Of a stretch of 26,492 nt of DNA, positions 4,008-18,410 are shown in pieces. The stretch lies in the NCBI GenBank assembly GCA_019746355.1, contig JAIESC010000259.1:1-26492 (forward strand), given 5' to 3'. The translations under genes and the position numbers were made by a program. The DNA is from Xanthobacteraceae bacterium. GTDB lineage: Bacteria; Pseudomonadota; Alphaproteobacteria; Rhizobiales; Xanthobacteraceae. Numbering within the stretch: position 1 is the first letter of the stretch; each line of letters starts with the position of its first letter. Below the pieces are notes generated by a model, which was not told where the DNA came from, ran no database searches, and saw only the letters and a program-made list of their open reading frames with translations.

Positions 4008-4183
4008 GCCGTGTCATAGCAAACGGCGGCGCTCCTGACAGCCGACCGGTGAAAGCACGAACGCCATATCGCCCAAACACATGGGAGCCCTGCGCGGGCC
4101 GCTGCGCCCGGCCTCATTGGATCGTTGTCCCGGTTTTCCCGCTTTGGCAGCATCCGATGGCTTCTGCATCGGAGGAAAGCGCC

Positions 4184-7055: not shown

Positions 7056-8474
7056 ATGGTTGAAAAGCCCGAAAAGGCCGGCTCCGCCGCCCCGACGCTT
7101 GTCTGGTTTCGGGACGATCTGCGCGTCGCCGACCACCCGGCGCTGGCGGAGGCCGCCAAAACCGGACGGCCGGTCATCTGTCTCTATGTGCTCGACGAGA
7201 CGCCCGCGTTGCGGCCGCTCGGCGCGGCGGCGCGCTGGTGGCTTGCCGGCTCGCTGCGGGCGCTGTCTGAGGCGCTGGCCAAGCGCGGCGCGGCGCTCGT
7301 GCTCCGGCGCGGACCGGCTCTCGAGATTGTCGCAAAGCTCGCGAAAGAGAGTGGAGCCACGGCGGTGCATTGGAACCGCCGCTACGGCCCCGGCGAGACC
7401 GTCGACGCGGCGCTCGAGCAAAAGCTCAAGCGGCAAGGCGTCAGCGTTGCGACCTTCCAGGCCAATGTGCTGCACGAGCCGCCCGTGCCGGGAAAAAGCG
7501 GCAATCCGCTCACGGTGTTCACGCCATTCTGGCGCACCGCTCAGGCCCGGGGCGCCCCACGCGCGCCCATGCCCGCGCCGCGCAAGATCGAAGGCGTAAA
7601 GGGCTCAGCGTCGGACGATCTCGCCTGCTGGAAGCTCGAACCCACCGCGCCGGACTGGGCCGCCGAAATGCGCGACACGTGGGTCCGCGGCGAAGCCGGT
7701 GCGCAACAGCGGCTCGGCGAATTCCTCGACCGCGAGCTCACGGGCTACACGACACGCCGCGACCGTCCCGACCTGCCCGGCACATCGCGGCTGTCGCCGC
7801 ACCTGCGGTTCGGCGAGGTGAGCCCGTTTCAGGTCTGGCATTCAATGCAGCTCGCGGCCCATGTTGCGGACCAAGGCGGGCGAGGCCAGCGTCCCCGCGC
7901 AGCCGACGCCGAGAAATTCCTGTCGGAGATCGGCTGGCGCGAGTTCTGCTATCAGCTTCTGCACCTCAATCCCGATCTTCACACCCGCAACGTTGACCGC
8001 CGCTTCGACCGCTTTTCGTGGCGCAAGGACCTCAAAGCGCTGCGCGCCTGGCAGAAGGGCATGACCGGCTCCCCGATCGTCGACGCCGGTATGCGCCAGC
8101 TCTGGCGCACCGGCTGGATGCACAACCGCGTGCGGATGGTGGTCGCGTCGTTTCTGGTGAAACACCTGCTGATCGACTGGCGCGACGGCGAGGCGTGGTT
8201 CTGGGACACGCTGGTCGATGCCGACCCGGCGAACAATCCGGCCAGTTGGCAATGGGTCGCGGGCTGCGGCGCTGATGCCGTGCCCTATTTCCGCGTGTTC
8301 AACCCGACGATCCAGGCGGAAAAATTCGACCCGGACGGCAGCTACGTGCGCGCCTTCGTGCCGGAGGCATCGGACGCCGGCGGCCTGTTCGGCGGCCGCT
8401 ATCCCGCACCGATGGTCGATCACAAGGCGGCGCGCGAGCGTGCGCTCGCGGCGTTTGCGACGATCAGGAACTAA
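7056..8474 (+). CDS. phrB: Deoxyribodipyrimidine (CPD) photolyase, class I
   Basis: A 472-residue light-dependent DNA repair flavoenzyme that splits cyclobutane pyrimidine dimers using reduced FAD. The N-terminal alpha/beta photolyase domain (antenna-chromophore binding) begins LVWFRDDLRVADHPAL near residue 15. The helical FAD domain carries the family motifs: TSRLSPHLRFGEVSP, FLSEIGWREFCYQ, TGSPIVDAGMRQL (337-349), WMHNRVRMVVASFLVKHLL, PASWQW, and PYFRVFNP (410-417). Length and motif order match E. coli PhrB (about 470). AGGG lies 11 nt before the ATG at 7056. An ATG at 7045 is in another frame. The gene ends in a 4-bp tail-to-tail overlap with the amine oxidase gene, whose product is unrelated. 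A cryptochrome function cannot be excluded from sequence, but the match to repair photolyases is close. Confidence 0.94.
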   Translation: MVEKPEKAGSAAPTLVWFRDDLRVADHPALAEAAKTGRPVICLYVLDETPALRPLGAAARWWLAGSLRALSEALAKRGAALVLRRGPALEIVAKLAKESGATAVHWNRRYGPGETVDAALEQKLKRQGVSVATFQANVLHEPPVPGKSGNPLTVFTPFWRTAQARGAPRAPMPAPRKIEGVKGSASDDLACWKLEPTAPDWAAEMRDTWVRGEAGAQQRLGEFLDRELTGYTTRRDRPDLPGTSRLSPHLRFGEVSPFQVWHSMQLAAHVADQGGRGQRPRAADAEKFLSEIGWREFCYQLLHLNPDLHTRNVDRRFDRFSWRKDLKALRAWQKGMTGSPIVDAGMRQLWRTGWMHNRVRMVVASFLVKHLLIDWRDGEAWFWDTLVDADPANNPASWQWVAGCGADAVPYFRVFNPTIQAEKFDPDGSYVRAFVPEASDAGGLFGGRYPAPMVDHKAARERALAAFATIRN

Positions 8475-10084
8475 CTACGCTTTGTCGCGGCCTTCGCCAT
8501 CCGGTCGATCGAAGCGACCGCAGCATGGGCGCTGATCAGCGCGCCCTCCTGCCAGGCGCTCCAGTGCGTGAGCTGATCGCCGGCCATAAGGAAGCGGCCC
8601 TGCGGCTCAGACAGAACCTTGGCGTTGTCGGCGAAAGCCGGAGCGCCTTCGTTCGCCCAGGCCATCCGCAGGAATTCCATGTTGCTCCAGCCGATGGCGA
8701 GGCCATGCTCGACATATTTCGAATAGCCGTCGTGCAGCCTGTCGCCCTGCTCTTTCGCAAGCCGCAGCCGCTCCGCCACCGGCTGCGCGTTGAAGCGCGC
8801 AGCGGCCGCGCCATACATGTACGCGCCGGTGAGCGCGCCCTTGCGGCTGAGGAAGCCGCTCGACGGATACCAGATCTGGGTGATGACATCGGTGGTCCAC
8901 GAGATGCCGCCGTAGATCTGGTCTTTCGTCTCCCAGAACCGCTCGGCCTGCCAGCCGACCTTGCCCGCGTCCTGCACCGGCAGTTTTGCGGCCGCCTCCA
9001 TGTAGGCCGCCGGCAGGTTGGTCTTCAGTCTCGCGAAAATCGGTGCGGGAATGGTCGAGATGCAATGGTCGGCCACAAGCGTTCGCGGCTTGCCGCCTTG
9101 CTCATAGGCGACCGTCACCTTGTCCGCCGTCACCTCGATCGCGGTGACCTTCGCGCCGGCGCGCACGAGCTTGCCGACGACACCGCCCTTGCGCGCCGGC
9201 TGCCGCAGGAACCCCTTGAAGAAGTTGTCCATGCCGCCGACCGGTTCGAGCAGCGAGGTCTGCCAGAAATATTCCGCGTCGCGGAAGATGTAGTCGTTCC
9301 AGACGTTCGAGCGCAGGATCTCGTCGAGCGCCATCGGGCTCAATGGCCGGCCGGACTCGTTGGCGAGGCCCGGCTCCGCCTCGTAGCCGGCGCGGCCGCC
9401 CCCGTTGCGATAGACATAGGCGGTCTCACCGTTGCGCTCGATCTTCGTGAGATCGCCGAACTTCGACAGCATGTCGCGGAACGTCGCGAGCTCGTTCGGC
9501 GAGATCGGCAGATCCATGCCAGGCTTCACCGCGCACTTGTCGAGCAGTTCGGCGATCTGCCCCTGCAGGTCGTAGTAGACGCGGCGCAGCTGCATGGTGC
9601 GGCCGTTGCCGAGCCGGTCCGTGTGCACGAGGTTTGCGCGGCTCGTGAAGATGTAGGGCTGCAGCGCCACGCCGAACCTGCGGCAATAGTCGATCACGTG
9701 CACATGATGGTGCGGAATGCGGCCGGGGCCGGCGTTGAACGACAGCCCCTCGTCGAAGCGGCATTGCTGCAGCGGACTGTTGAGCTCGCGAAGCGTGTCG
9801 CCACGGCGCAGCGTCAGACTGCGCCCGCCCGCCCGGTTGCTCGCCTCGAGCACCGTGCAGTCGTACCCGGCGCGATCGAGCTCATAGGCCGCGCAAAGCC
9901 CGGCGACGCCCGCACCCAAGATCGCCACCGTTTTGCCGCCGCCGGAATTCCTCGCAAGCTCGAACGGCGCCGCCATCGCCGGCGGCGCCTTGAGAAACTC
10001 CCAGGCGGTGAGCGCCTCATACACGGCCGCCGCGCCGCCAAGCCGCGCCATCGCGTTGATCAGCTTCCGACGCGTGATCGCCAT
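8471..10084 (-). CDS. Tat-exported flavin monoamine / L-amino acid oxidase family protein
   Basis: A 537-residue FAD amine oxidase. The ATG at 10084 was chosen because GGGAGAA sits just upstream and because it yields a clear twin-arginine signal: TRRKLINAM at residues 4-12, a hydrophobic stretch, and PPAMAA near 34-39. The protein should therefore fold with FAD in the cytoplasm and be exported. The FAD-binding Rossmann motif is GAGVAG (57-62), followed by Glu80 and the RAGGR motif (84-88). The C-terminal FAD/substrate motif is MAGDQLTHWSAWQEGALISA (500-519). Family members oxidise amines or L-amino acids to imines with release of H2O2, and the substrate cannot be read here. It is divergently transcribed from cysK with 104 bp between starts, and converges on the photolyase gene. 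Confidence 0.85.
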   Translation of the reverse strand: MAITRRKLINAMARLGGAAAVYEALTAWEFLKAPPAMAAPFELARNSGGGKTVAILGAGVAGLCAAYELDRAGYDCTVLEASNRAGGRSLTLRRGDTLRELNSPLQQCRFDEGLSFNAGPGRIPHHHVHVIDYCRRFGVALQPYIFTSRANLVHTDRLGNGRTMQLRRVYYDLQGQIAELLDKCAVKPGMDLPISPNELATFRDMLSKFGDLTKIERNGETAYVYRNGGGRAGYEAEPGLANESGRPLSPMALDEILRSNVWNDYIFRDAEYFWQTSLLEPVGGMDNFFKGFLRQPARKGGVVGKLVRAGAKVTAIEVTADKVTVAYEQGGKPRTLVADHCISTIPAPIFARLKTNLPAAYMEAAAKLPVQDAGKVGWQAERFWETKDQIYGGISWTTDVITQIWYPSSGFLSRKGALTGAYMYGAAAARFNAQPVAERLRLAKEQGDRLHDGYSKYVEHGLAIGWSNMEFLRMAWANEGAPAFADNAKVLSEPQGRFLMAGDQLTHWSAWQEGALISAHAAVASIDRMAKAATKRS

Positions 10085-10188
10085 CGCCGTTCTCCCGATC
10101 CGGAGCAGGTTTTTCTCACAAGTCGCGCGGCCTTGTCCGCAAGGGTGGCCTCCACTACGTTCTCCCGACGGAACAAGGCCGGACAATC

Positions 10189-11229
10189 ATGCAAATCCGC
10201 GACAATGTCGTCGACGCCATCGGCCACACGCCGCTGATCAGGCTCGAGCGCGCGTCGGCGCTGACCGGCTGCACCATTCTCGGCAAGGCCGAGTTCATGA
10301 ACCCCGGCGGCTCGGTGAAGGACCGCCCCGGCCGGCAGATGATCTTGGAGGCCGAGAAACGCGGCGACCTGAAGCCCGGCGGCCTCGTGGTCGAGGGCAC
10401 CGCGGGCAACACCGGCATCGGGCTCGCGGTCGTTGCGGCGGCGCGCGGCTACCGCACGCTGATCGTCATCCCCAACACCCAGAGCCAGGAAAAGAAGGAC
10501 ATGCTGCGGCTCTGCGGCGCCGAGCTGATCGAGGTGCCGGCGCTACCCTACAGCAATCCGAACAACTACCAGCACGTCGCGCGCCGCCTTGCCGATCAGT
10601 TGCGCAAGACCGAGAAGAACGGCGTGCTGTTCGCCGACCAGTGGAACAACCGCGACAACCGCCTCGCGCACTATCTTTCGACCGGCCCGGAAATCCTCGA
10701 GGAGACCCAAGGCAAGGTCGACGCCTTCATCTGCTCGGTCGGCACCGGCGGCACGCTCGCCGGCGTTTCGATCTATCTGCGCGAAAGGAAGAAGGACATC
10801 GTCATCGGCTGTGCCGATCCGCGCGGGGCGGCGATGTACAACCTGTTCACCACCGGCGAGGCGAAGGCGACCGAAGGCGGCTCGATCACCGAAGGCATCG
10901 GGCTCGGCCGCGTGACGCGGATCATCGACGACATCAAGGTCGACAAGGCCTATCTCATTCCCGACGAGGAGGCCGTCCCGGTGATTTTCGATCTCCTGGA
11001 GCACGAAGGCCTGTGCCTTGGCGGCTCGTCGGGCATCAACGTCGCGGGCGCGATCAGGCTTGCCAAGGAGCTAGGCCCCGGCAAGACCATCGTCACCGTC
11101 CTCGCCGACAGCGGCACCCGCTACCAGTCGAAGCTGTTCAACCCGGAATTCCTGCGTTCGAAGAAGCTCCCGGTCCCGGCCTGGATCGAGAAGAAGCCGG
11201 ATATCGAAATCCCGTTCGAGAAGGTCTAG
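10189..11229 (+). CDS. cysK: Cysteine synthase A (O-acetylserine sulfhydrylase), PLP-dependent
   Basis: A 346-residue fold-type II PLP enzyme that makes L-cysteine from O-acetylserine and sulfide. The PLP lysine is Lys44 in NPGGSVKDR. The substrate loop is GTAGNTG (70-76), where most CysK proteins have PTSGNTG. The phosphate-binding loop is SVGTGGTLAG (183-192), and GGSSGIN lies in the C-terminal PLP pocket. The C-terminus has an extension of about 25 residues beyond the usual CysK core (ending IEIPFEKV). AAGG about 11 nt before ATG 10189 serves as a modest RBS. The following intergenic space carries a large inverted repeat and no linked gene, so it is probably transcribed alone. A cystathionine beta-synthase-like role is less likely because there is no CBS domain. 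Confidence 0.9.
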   Translation: MQIRDNVVDAIGHTPLIRLERASALTGCTILGKAEFMNPGGSVKDRPGRQMILEAEKRGDLKPGGLVVEGTAGNTGIGLAVVAAARGYRTLIVIPNTQSQEKKDMLRLCGAELIEVPALPYSNPNNYQHVARRLADQLRKTEKNGVLFADQWNNRDNRLAHYLSTGPEILEETQGKVDAFICSVGTGGTLAGVSIYLRERKKDIVIGCADPRGAAMYNLFTTGEAKATEGGSITEGIGLGRVTRIIDDIKVDKAYLIPDEEAVPVIFDLLEHEGLCLGGSSGINVAGAIRLAKELGPGKTIVTVLADSGTRYQSKLFNPEFLRSKKLPVPAWIEKKPDIEIPFEKV

Positions 11230-15487: not shown

Positions 15488-15559
15488 TAATGACATGGGC
15501 ACGCCGCTTCGCGGCTTTGTCCTACTGCGTCAGAAGAAGCCGAAGCGCTTGTTGTTGCG

Positions 15560-15701
15560 CCCTCTCCCAGAGGGAGAGGGCTACGCTGAACGCGCAGCAT
15601 AAAAGACAGGGTGAGGGGTTACGGTCCATCGATGGACCGCAACCCCTCACCCATTCGCGTGTATTGCACAGTCAATGTAGCCCTCTCCCACAAGGAGAGG
15701 G
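15560..15701. repeat. Symmetric 142-bp palindromic element
   Basis: The element is mirror-symmetric about 15630.5. A central 44-bp palindrome (15609-15652, GGGTGAGGGGTT at one end, ATCGAT at its centre, AACCCCTCACCC at the other) has one mismatched pair. It is flanked on each side by a 28-nt spacer and then by a hairpin: CCCTCTCCC-AGA-GGGAGAGGG at 15560-15580 and CCCTCTCC-CACAA-GGAGAGGG at 15681-15701. The spacers are of equal length and match at about half of their positions when one is reverse-complemented, so the whole unit looks like an ageing perfect palindrome. It lies between the 3' ends of two convergent genes and could terminate both. Confidence 0.85.
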
Positions 15702-15774
15702 CACAGTAATAAACGGCGGCGTTTTTTGACGCAGTAGAGTTTGCCCACCCTACCAAAACCGGCACCAAAAATTC

Positions 15775-16725
15775 TCAACGCGCGCCAAACCCAGCGCGCT
15801 TGATGGCGTCGGCATTGGCGATCGAATCCTCGTCGAACGTGGCGCGGAACTGGTCACCCGGCAGATAGCGCGGCTCGGCACCCAGCCGGTCGACGATGGC
15901 CTTGTATTCCGGCGCGGCCGCCGCCGTGGCGCAGGCCTTTTCGAGCACGCCCGCGACCCCGTCGGGCGTCTTGGCCGGCGCGATCAGGCCGCCCGCGCTG
16001 AAGCCGATCGCCGGATAGCCAAGCTCCTTCATCGTCGGCACGTCCGGCAGGCTCGCGAGGCGTTCCGCCGAAACCGCGGCCAGGACCGGCAGGTTGCTCG
16101 CCTTCGCCACCGGCGGACTTTCCGTGATCGCCATGATCGTGCCGCCCAGCAGCGCGTGCGACATCGGCCCCGCCCCCTGGAACGGCACGCCGAGCCCGTC
16201 GACACCGACCGCCTTGAGTACGCCTAGCATCACGAGATGCGGCTGGCTCGCGACGCCGGGATGACCGTAGACCAGGTTCTCGGGCTTGGCCTTCGCGAAG
16301 CTGACGAACTCGGCGAAGGTCTTGAACGGCGCCTGCGGGCCGGCGATCAGCACATAGGGCGTGTAGTAAGTGAGGCAGATGTAGCGGAACGTGTCCATGC
16401 CGAACCGCAGGTTCGGCTGCATGTGCGGCTGCGCGGTGACCGGATTGTTCGGGGTGAGCGCGATGGTGTAGCCGTCGGGCTCGGCCTTCACGAGATCGAG
16501 CAGGCCGATGGTGCCGGCCGCGCCGCCCTTGTTGCTGATGATGACCGACTGGCTCAAGGCCTTGGACAATTCGGTCTGAAGCGCGCGGGCCATCAGGTCG
16601 GTGTTGCCGCCCGGCGGAAACGGCACGACCATGGTCACCGGCCGCGACGGATAGGTCTGAGCGGAGGCGGCGGACACGGCACCGGCAAGCGCGGCGGCGA
16701 CGAGCAGCAGCAGCGAACGACTCAT
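15775..16725 (-). CDS. Bug-family (tripartite tricarboxylate transporter) substrate-binding protein
   Basis: A 316-residue periplasmic receptor. The signal peptide ends at about residue 22 (VSAASA, then QTYPSRP). The mature protein has the family pattern: YPSRPVTMVVPFPPGGNTD, a segment NKGGAAGTIGLLDLVKAEPDGYT, the ligand-loop region VPFQGAGPMSHALLGG, and SLPDVPTMKELGYP near 235-250. These proteins bind carboxylates and similar small molecules through two backbone-water bridges, so the ligand cannot be predicted. No TctA or TctB membrane subunit is nearby, as is common for the very numerous orphan Bug proteins. GGGAGGG lies about 5 nt upstream of ATG 16725. It is divergent from the Ntn-hydrolase-like gene, with 51 bp between starts. 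Confidence 0.92.
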   Translation of the reverse strand: MSRSLLLLVAAALAGAVSAASAQTYPSRPVTMVVPFPPGGNTDLMARALQTELSKALSQSVIISNKGGAAGTIGLLDLVKAEPDGYTIALTPNNPVTAQPHMQPNLRFGMDTFRYICLTYYTPYVLIAGPQAPFKTFAEFVSFAKAKPENLVYGHPGVASQPHLVMLGVLKAVGVDGLGVPFQGAGPMSHALLGGTIMAITESPPVAKASNLPVLAAVSAERLASLPDVPTMKELGYPAIGFSAGGLIAPAKTPDGVAGVLEKACATAAAAPEYKAIVDRLGAEPRYLPGDQFRATFDEDSIANADAIKRAGFGAR

Positions 16726-16776
16726 GGTACCCTCCCGTATGCGACGAATCTGCCGGCGTCCTCGCAGGTGATTGAG

Positions 16777-17598
16777 ATGACCATTGCCATTGTAGCCAAA
16801 GCCGTTGATGACATCTTTATTTGCGTTTCGGACAAAATGGTTTCGTTTGGCGACATCTCACAAGCCGACGAGAACGCCACTATAAAGTCGCCCAGCTTGG
16901 GACCAAACTGGGGAGTCGCATACTCGGCCAGCGACCTAAACCTAGTATATCCGATCTTAGACTCAATCAGATTGAAAATGGCTGGTTCAGCTTACTGGGA
17001 GATCGCTCAAGTCCAGAGTTTTTGTGCAACCGCATACGTTGAGAAATTTCATCAAGAGTTCATCGCCAAGAGACTGTGCCGCTATGGCTACACCACAATC
17101 GAACAATTCCGAAAGGAAGGGCGTGCTGATCTCGGTGATCAATTCTACGAACTTTGTCGTGACCTTGAAAAATTCGATCTTGGGGTACAATTCTTAGTTT
17201 ACGGGTACGACTCCAATAAAGCTCCTACTATTTTCGAGGTGTCTAATCCTGGATACATAACTGACCACGATGTTCTCGACTATGCAGTAATTGGCAGCGG
17301 CTACTATATGGCGACAGCTTCCTTACGAAGACGCCCGCTTAAATATCACCTCGAATCCACAATATATCGGTTGTTAGAGGCCAAATTCTCCGCTGAAACC
17401 GCCAGCGGAGTAGGTAAAGCGACAACTCTGTTGTTGATGAGCAGCGGCGGTGCGCTGTCGCTCGTAGACGATCCGTCAGTGGAACGTATTCGTCGCATCT
17501 GGAGCAGCGCAGTGAATGCTCCAGACCCAGAAGATGCGTTAGATATCATCGCCAATCTTAACGGTGTTAGAAATGTCTCCGATGGCGGAGAGCGCTGA
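16777..17598 (+). CDS. Orphan proteasome/HslV-like Ntn-hydrolase candidate, foreign base composition
   Basis: A 273-residue protein with no signal peptide. I cannot assign a named family, but the pattern fits the proteasome beta/HslV fold. Met1 is followed by Thr2, which Met removal would expose as an N-terminal nucleophile. A strand and turn (TIAIVAKAVDDIFICVSDK) then place Asp19 where proteasome subunits have Asp17, counting from the Thr. Lys37 (ATIKS) falls near the catalytic Lys33 position. Next comes a strand GVAYSASDLNLVYPILDSIR, then a basic helical insert (about 72-135) absent from HslV. DYAVIGSGYYMATASL (168-183) resembles the AIGSGG helix of HslV, and AKFSAETASGVGKATTLLL (202-220) the following AE-A helix. 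It is longer than HslV (about 175). AGG lies 8 nt before ATG 16777. GC is about 45-50% in sampled lines against about 63-67% in neighbours, suggesting transfer. It ends 14 bp from the convergent aapP stop. Confidence 0.6.
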   Translation: MTIAIVAKAVDDIFICVSDKMVSFGDISQADENATIKSPSLGPNWGVAYSASDLNLVYPILDSIRLKMAGSAYWEIAQVQSFCATAYVEKFHQEFIAKRLCRYGYTTIEQFRKEGRADLGDQFYELCRDLEKFDLGVQFLVYGYDSNKAPTIFEVSNPGYITDHDVLDYAVIGSGYYMATASLRRRPLKYHLESTIYRLLEAKFSAETASGVGKATTLLLMSSGGALSLVDDPSVERIRRIWSSAVNAPDPEDALDIIANLNGVRNVSDGGER

Positions 17599-17612
17599 CT
17601 TCTGCATTCTCA

Positions 17613-18410
17613 TCAGTGCAGTATCTGGCTCAGAAACAGCTTGGTCCGCTCGTGCTGCGGATTGTCGAAAAACGCCTTCGGCTCGTTCGCCTCGACGATC
17701 TGGCCTTCGTCCATGAACACGATGCGATTGGCGACCTGCCGCGCGAAGCCCATTTCATGGGTGACGCACAGCATCGTCATGCCGTCCTGCGCGAGCTGAA
17801 CCATCGTGTCGAGAACCTCCTTGACCATCTCCGGGTCGAGCGCCGAGGTCGGCTCGTCGAACAGCATGATCTTCGGATGCATGCAGAGCGCGCGCGCGAT
17901 GGCGACGCGCTGCTGCTGGCCGCCGGAGAGCTGACCGGGATACTTGCCGGCCTGCTCGGGGATCTTGACGCGCCGCAAGTACTGCATCGCGACCTCGTCG
18001 GCGTCCTTCTTCGGCAGCTTGCGGACCCAGATCGGCGCAAGCGTCAGGTTCTCCAGCACAGTGAGATGCGGGAACAGGTTGAAATGCTGGAACACCATGC
18101 CGACGTCGCGGCGCACCTCGTCGATCTTCTTGAGATCGTTGGTCAGCTCCGTGCCGTCGACGACGATGCGGCCCTGCTGGTGCTCCTCGAGCCGGTTGAT
18201 GCAGCGGATCATGGTCGACTTGCCCGAGCCCGACGGGCCGCACACCACGATGCGCTCGCCCTTGGTGACCCGCAGGTTGATGTCGCGCAGCACGTGGAAA
18301 TCGCCATACCACTTGTGCACGCCGACCATCTCGATGGCGACCCCGGTTTTGAGCGGCGCGGGCTTCAGCGCAGAGTTTACCGGTTGCTCAGCCGATTTTT
18401 GCTCTACCAT
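17613..18410 (-). CDS. aapP: General L-amino acid ABC transporter ATP-binding protein
   Basis: A 265-residue cytoplasmic ATPase that drives amino acid uptake through the AapQM pore. Walker A is GPSGSGKST (58-66), the Q-loop lies in [12 protein letters not shown], the ABC signature is LSGGQ (161-165), Walker B is IMLFDE (181-186), the D-loop is SALDPE and the switch His is His218 (VTHEMGF). Length and motifs match the polar amino acid (PAAT/HAAT) family: HisP, GlnQ and rhizobial AapP. It is the last gene of the aapJQMP operon, 10 bp downstream of aapM. The N-terminal 20 or so residues are a short polar extension before the domain. Confidence 0.95.

Follow-up and report, generated by a model that had tools for sequence, protein, structure and literature searches.

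We analyzed a window of 26,492 nucleotides (nt) from a Xanthobacteraceae bacterium (contig JAIESC010000259.1 of GenBank assembly GCA_019746355.1), which carries on its plus strand, at 16777–17598, an open reading frame (ORF) of 273 residues that starts with Met-Thr. With a probability of roughly 0.72 for the reading as a whole, we take this gene to encode a catalytically competent proteasome-like N-terminal-nucleophile hydrolase, an ATP-independent peptidase that was acquired horizontally. The computed support consists of the predicted fold, near-invariant catalytic residues, an alien composition, and the absence of a partner gene nearby. An earlier note, made from the sequence alone, had picked out this ORF together with Thr2, Asp19, Lys37, the VIGSG stretch at residues 171–175, and AETASGVGKATT at 206–217; each was found as claimed, and the note's interpretation overall is supported.

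The gene and its catalytic residues

The features of the gene are listed below. Residue counts refer to a family of 130 members, made up of the rows of a sequence search and the 120 listed proteins of a profile search that returned 152, with the sister-family proteins P0096 and P0097 excluded; 27 of the 130 are gapped at the Thr position (late start calls or fragments).

16777..17598, plus strand: coding sequence of the proteasome-like N-terminal-threonine hydrolase (273 amino acids [aa], G+C 48.2%)
16766..16772, plus strand: Shine-Dalgarno-like AGGTGAT, a 7-nt anti-Shine-Dalgarno match ending 4 nt upstream of the ATG at 16777
16780..16782, plus strand: Thr2 codon, corresponding to proteasome Thr1 (the nucleophile); Thr in 103/103; residue 2 of the predicted model pairs with chain residue 1 (or 301)
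16831..16833, plus strand: Asp19 codon, corresponding to proteasome Asp17; Asp in 108/109, Glu in 1
16885..16887, plus strand: Lys37 codon, corresponding to proteasome Lys33; Lys in 119/120, Val in 1
17098..17172, plus strand: helical insert after helix H2 (helices 108–119 and 122–132 in the predicted secondary structure), at the pore-loop position, a position named after PMC8665760
17296..17298, plus strand: Ser174 codon, corresponding to proteasome Ser129 (IGSG); Ser in 127, Thr in 3 (n = 130)
17395..17397, plus strand: Glu207 codon, at the proteasome Asp166 position by sequence alignment only; Glu in 129, Ala in 1 (n = 130)
17404..17406, plus strand: Ser210 codon, at the proteasome Ser169 position by sequence alignment only; Ser in 63, Thr in 37, others in the rest (n = 130)
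17470..17583, plus strand: C-terminal helices of the predicted model within residues 232–269 (one H5-like and two short)

The ATG at 16777, which places Thr at position 2, is well supported as the start because of its 7-nt anti-Shine-Dalgarno match; matches of at least 6 nt at a spacing of 4–9 nt precede 8 of the window's 715 ATG triplets, both strands counted. The frame remains open upstream as far as 16237, in an extension that mostly lies antisense to the left neighbor.

The three residues singled out by the earlier note proved close to fixed among the homologues, and no member with a residue at position 2 has anything other than Thr there, Ser and Cys included. The catalytic triad of the PF00227 family (Thr1/Ser1, Asp17, and Lys33) is thus conserved, and selection for activity is the simplest reading of such near-fixed columns. 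The proteasome triad is retained with one near-fixed change elsewhere, Glu in place of Asp166. The Asp166 and Ser169 positions were assigned by aligning E-T-A-S-G with D-T-A-T-G of a bacterial beta-like subunit and D-S-A-S-G of the archaeal one; because HMMER shifts the alignment in this region and pairs different residues, we are less sure of these two assignments than of the triad.

The predicted model matches 20S proteasome chains, so that an Ntn fold, whose absence would have counted against the earlier note, appears to be present. It has the beta-sheet core and helices H1 to H4 of the proteasome-like family (predicted at residues 54–67, 76–103, 176–185, and 192–206), with a predicted six-residue linker between H3 and H4 and no predicted helix between residues 19 and 53. 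The helical insert had been described as basic, which does not hold overall: residues 93–133 have a net charge of 0 (family median 0, n = 126), though residues 96–120 alone carry +3 (family median +2). A profile search of the PDB placed HslV on top (9.3e-5) and also returned weak matches to alpha subunits. At the level of structure, viral proteasome-like folds match as well (19 at E ≤ 0.001).

Relatives and known proteasome-like groups

The window protein matches Pfam PF00227 (Proteasome subunit) at 28.7 bits against a curated cut-off of 22.4. It is not the product of an orphan gene, as had been proposed, since the sequence search (E ≤ 0.001) gathered 97 proteins, the query included, and the profile search 152, with identities to the window protein reaching down to about 30%. 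Few of these relatives can be tied to an organism. A name is attached to 1 of the 130 family rows, P0124, from a Hyphomicrobiaceae metagenome-assembled genome (MAG), and four (P0022, P0036, P0061, and P0124) have the source "ncbi"; the others are mostly labeled jgi, lgn, or ena, which we take to be mainly environmental assemblies. Scanning 84,980 species genomes with one peptide pattern yielded a single locus, in a Spartobacteria MAG, a scan that undercounts because the pattern is present in 94 of the 130 members. When 83 genomes from the family of this MAG and 387 from its phylum were searched by profile, only the MAG itself matched. No match was found in PADLOC or PHROGs at E ≤ 10, and no paper naming the family was found in the literature searched, outside which most subscription journals lie. 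For the long members P0046 and P0051, Pfam shows no further domain, hence no fusion-domain clue, and their tails look frameshifted. The family is a rare clade without assigned function, hardly known from named organisms and apparently intact.

The relative in the Spartobacteria MAG is followed, 82 nt beyond its end, by an ORF with an IS1-type transposase domain. The same MAG has a prcB/prcA-like pair (below the cut-offs, at 167.6 bits for TIGR03690 and 88.7 bits for TIGR03691) and a further gene that, from its sequence pattern, is presumably Anbu-like.

The nearest relative found is the family of P0096, 350 proteins of ~225 aa without assigned function, whose named rows among the 120 listed are Dehalococcoidales, Dehalococcoidia, and Chloroflexota. 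Profile comparison (hhalign probability 99.7, E 1.3e-26) aligns the two families through the shared helical insert and the AK..SE.A.GVG motif, with a common layout up to residue 221, and Thr2, Asp20, and Lys40 are invariant in the 24 aligned members of the sister family. Unlike the window family, it ends near the last core strand and has no C-terminal helices; identity to the window protein is 24% for P0096 and 26% for P0097.

The earlier note had listed HslV, Anbu, and BPH as the bacterial proteasome-related groups. That list is incomplete, as Fuchs, Alva, and Lupas (2021; PMC8665760, cited throughout from its accessible text) add 22 new clusters of prokaryotic proteasome-like proteins to HslV, Anbu, BPH, and connectase. 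A "further bacterial lineage" of threonine hydrolases is therefore supported, though as one among many, and the cluster named PHI has a similar layout.

Like the beta subunits of the 20S proteasome (PrcB, PsmB), the window protein has the fold, the N-terminal Thr, the Asp17, Lys33, and Ser129 positions, and a D/E-[ST]-A-[ST]-G motif ahead of the last core strand; it differs in the Glu at the Asp166 position, the helical insert after H2, and the lack of an alpha partner or ATPase gene nearby. It falls short of the 20S beta equivalogs, scoring 15.1 bits against TIGR03634 (cut-off 224) and not matching TIGR03690. Among 58 members compared with NCBIfam, 24 match TIGR03634 at E ≤ 1 (best 5.3e-9) and four match TIGR03690 (best 0.031). 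Membership in HslV was rejected, as the window protein has no NCBIfam HslV match at E ≤ 10 and the 58 members match 20 families at E ≤ 1, none of them HslV; the window protein also differs from HslV in its helical insert, its C-terminal helices, and the lack of hslU nearby. BPH, in the accessible text of PMC5777263, has an extended pore loop that is acidic, a Thr or Ser nucleophile, no known unfoldase, and no propeptide, and PMC8665760 lists it among the compact group I proteins. The window protein shares the extended pore loop and the lack of a known unfoldase and of a propeptide, but its insert has a net charge of 0 and it has C-terminal helices.

It is possible, though doubtful, that the window family belongs to a cluster that Fuchs et al. 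have already described, which would be compatible with the peptidase reading. PHI has a longer helical insertion after H1/H2 and comprised 53 nr90 sequences in August 2020, and PMI-2 to PMI-6 carry an insertion between H3 and H4 (PMC8665760). The predicted six-residue H3–H4 connection argues against PMI-2 to PMI-6, which we rejected. Compared by description only, the layout of PHI appears to fit the window protein best among these clusters, with a helical insert after H1/H2, no H3/H4 insert, and a rare and scattered occurrence, and the sister family of P0096 shares this layout up to residue 221. Against membership, PHI had its 53 sequences by August 2020, whereas the window family, to judge from its four "ncbi" rows, was probably hardly visible then. 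It also has a conserved leader before Thr that the accessible text of PMC8665760 does not describe for PHI.

Residues ahead of the catalytic threonine

Many homologues carry residues ahead of Thr, P0002, P0030, P0018, and P0124 among them. For these counts, 26 of the 130 members have no identifiable Thr, and P0088 is a C-terminal fragment wrongly matched (a lone Asp at −1). In the 64 members with at least 12 such residues (one being the misassigned P0088), the motif P[TSN]xx[EDQ][LFMWYI]Gxx[VML] runs directly up to Thr in 40, and Gly stands at −4 in 58. The shorter [EDQ][LFMWY]Gxx[VML] is found in 59 of the 69 members with at least six residues before Thr. With P0088 dropped, the residue at −1 in 72 internal cases is Val (61), Met (7), or Leu (4), three residues for which start codons exist; in another 31 members, the gene call puts the start on the −1 codon itself (25 Met and 6 Val). 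The substitutions seen in the leader (Glu/Asp, Leu/Phe/Met, and Ala/Ser) look like selection acting on the protein. The window copy has no leader motif in frame; LPASSQVIE precedes its Met.

A quick tree of 103 family members (without P0088), four outgroup rows, and the Spartobacteria protein intermixes leader-bearing and Met-Thr members, the leader label changing 27 times against a shuffled mean of 33.3. We think that this mixing is due in part to gene callers choosing different starts. In the predicted model of P0030, Thr16 is superposed on residue 1 (or 301) of the best-matching chains, and leader residues 1–13 have a predicted local distance difference test score (pLDDT) below 50, with no readable pose.

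Propeptides, in the accessible text of PMC8665760, are reported only in 20S beta and HslV. We tentatively propose, as a minority view, that the window family is an unnamed branch that spreads as a single-gene module and carries an activation switch of its own, in which a conserved leader of ~14 residues adjoining Thr, [RK]P[TSN]x[AS][ED][LFM]Gx[DEN][VML], would be either a propeptide or an optional extension with an internal start as its last codon.

Origin of the gene and its likely reaction

The hydrolase gene occupies the gap between two genes on the opposite strand, the first starting at 16725 and the second ending at 17613.

15775..16725, minus strand: left neighbor, TctC-type solute receptor, diverging, host-like composition
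17613..18410, minus strand: right neighbor, ABC transporter ATPase (amino-acid type), converging, host-like composition

Its G+C content (48.2%) and third-position G+C content (50%) lie well apart from the 61.9–71.6% and 64.6–91.3% of 20 other window ORFs, and in codon usage it diverges from the rest by 0.87, compared with 0.13–0.64 for the others. The next-highest values are 0.643, for an ORF that runs antisense to an amine oxidase frame, and 0.54, for a 110-aa gene; the ABC transporter ATPase gene, similar in length to the hydrolase gene, stands at 0.23; the codon reference for these values includes the ORF at 8525–10237, which is probably not a gene. The composition thus supports the horizontal acquisition that the earlier note had raised as a possibility, and from it and the scattered distribution we infer that the gene arrived by transfer as a single gene. 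An assembly chimera, in which the low-G+C gene would be no real part of this genome, is very improbable: the window protein is known from one contig only and the composition shifts abruptly at either end of the gene, but the ORF is intact, it fits between its two neighbors, and its ribosome site lies within host-like sequence.

Pfam scans of 27 other window frames returned no AAA+ unfoldase, transglutaminase, or ATP-grasp gene, in agreement with the earlier note, and no alpha-subunit gene. The hslU neighbor of HslV, the alpha-subunit gene of 20S beta, and the operon partners of Anbu are each absent there; in the accessible text of PMC5666114, the operon of Anbu with transglutaminase, ATP-grasp, and Alpha-E is frequent and not universal. 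The gene without partners agrees with PMC8665760, where, as far as its accessible text goes, no telling gene contexts were found for the new homologs.

In the mechanism that we favor, methionine aminopeptidase would remove Met1 and expose Thr2, as was shown for Anbu (PMC5666114). The "self-activating" threonine hydrolase of the earlier note therefore stands as a threonine hydrolase, with its Thr presumably exposed by Met removal and not by self-cleavage. The Thr2 hydroxyl would attack the peptide bond in the manner of Thr1 of 20S beta, assisted by Lys37, Asp19, and Ser174 and probably also by Glu207 and Ser210, and the extra helix pair at the pore-loop position would restrict access to the site. 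Because no unfoldase lies beside the gene and the insert would limit access, the protein is most likely an ATP-independent peptidase acting on peptides or loose chains, either alone or as a homo-oligomer.

The main functional rival, rather unlikely in our judgment, is a connectase-like ligase or transpeptidase, in which a specific protein or peptide would be bound to Thr2 as an acyl-enzyme and handed on to an acceptor. A lone gene with no unfoldase nearby would suit such an enzyme, as would an extra helical element of the kind that adds to the specificity of connectase (PMC8665760). Connectase, however, lacks H1 and H2 and carries a two-helix insert between S3 and S4, whereas the window protein has predicted H1 and H2 helices and an insert after H2; on this layout, membership in connectase itself was rejected. 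A degenerate, non-catalytic alpha-like subunit, the alternative that the earlier note had retained, was rejected as highly improbable, as the weak alpha-subunit matches are set against near-fixed Thr1, Asp17, Lys33, and Ser129 positions in a family of such low identities.

Several results weigh against a horizontally acquired, catalytically competent peptidase. The Ser169 position holds Ser or Thr in just 100 of the 130 members, and the Spartobacteria relative, which PF00227 misses, keeps Thr, Asp, Lys, and Glu and carries Val where Ser129 would be (IGVG). The search for a promoter of the hydrolase gene gave nothing above chance. Between 16700–16800 and 17570–17680, there is no direct repeat of at least 7 nt and no inverted repeat of at least 8 nt, so that a transposition footprint was rejected; with neither bounding repeats nor an empty insertion site, the case for transfer comes down to composition and scatter. 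Searches for a transfer vehicle found no relative of the window protein (P0001) or P0030 in phages, none of P0001, P0030, or P0121 in plasmids, and none of P0001 or the family alignment in viral contigs; a phage or plasmid origin was rejected on these searches. Finally, connectase is a ligase and Anbu has no known function, so that the fold does not fix the reaction, and the clues to the function of the new homologs are limited (PMC8665760).

Elsewhere in the window, the ABC transporter ATPase is 80–85% identical to proteins of Bosea, Shinella, Sinorhizobium, Roseateles, and others (15 of at least 5,000 plasmid-record matches), which as a rough guide makes the host probably a member of the Hyphomicrobiales. 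The gap to the left of the TctC-type gene holds an imperfect palindrome (15546–15715; 85-nt arms, 74% complementary) that contains GCCCTCTCCC...GGAGAGGGC twice. No tRNA lies within the window. At 8471–10186, the minus strand carries a flavin amine oxidase frame, and an open frame of equal length without a Pfam match overlaps it on the plus strand; the minus-strand reading is probably the real gene. A 525-aa frame at 4049–5626 matches endoribonuclease L-PSP (PF01042, profile length 121) in two places.

Taken as a peptidase of the proteasome-like type, the window protein and its relatives add a rarely seen branch to a group of enzymes that spans proteases and a protein ligase that serves as a laboratory tool. 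A leader peptide, which the accessible text of PMC8665760 does not report for such lone homologs, may be present in the family. If the leader proposal were true, some cells would make a masked pro-form and a ready Met-Thr form from one gene, and copies like that of the window would have lost the leader and be always on. As a small enzyme encoded by a single gene, it is easy to test.
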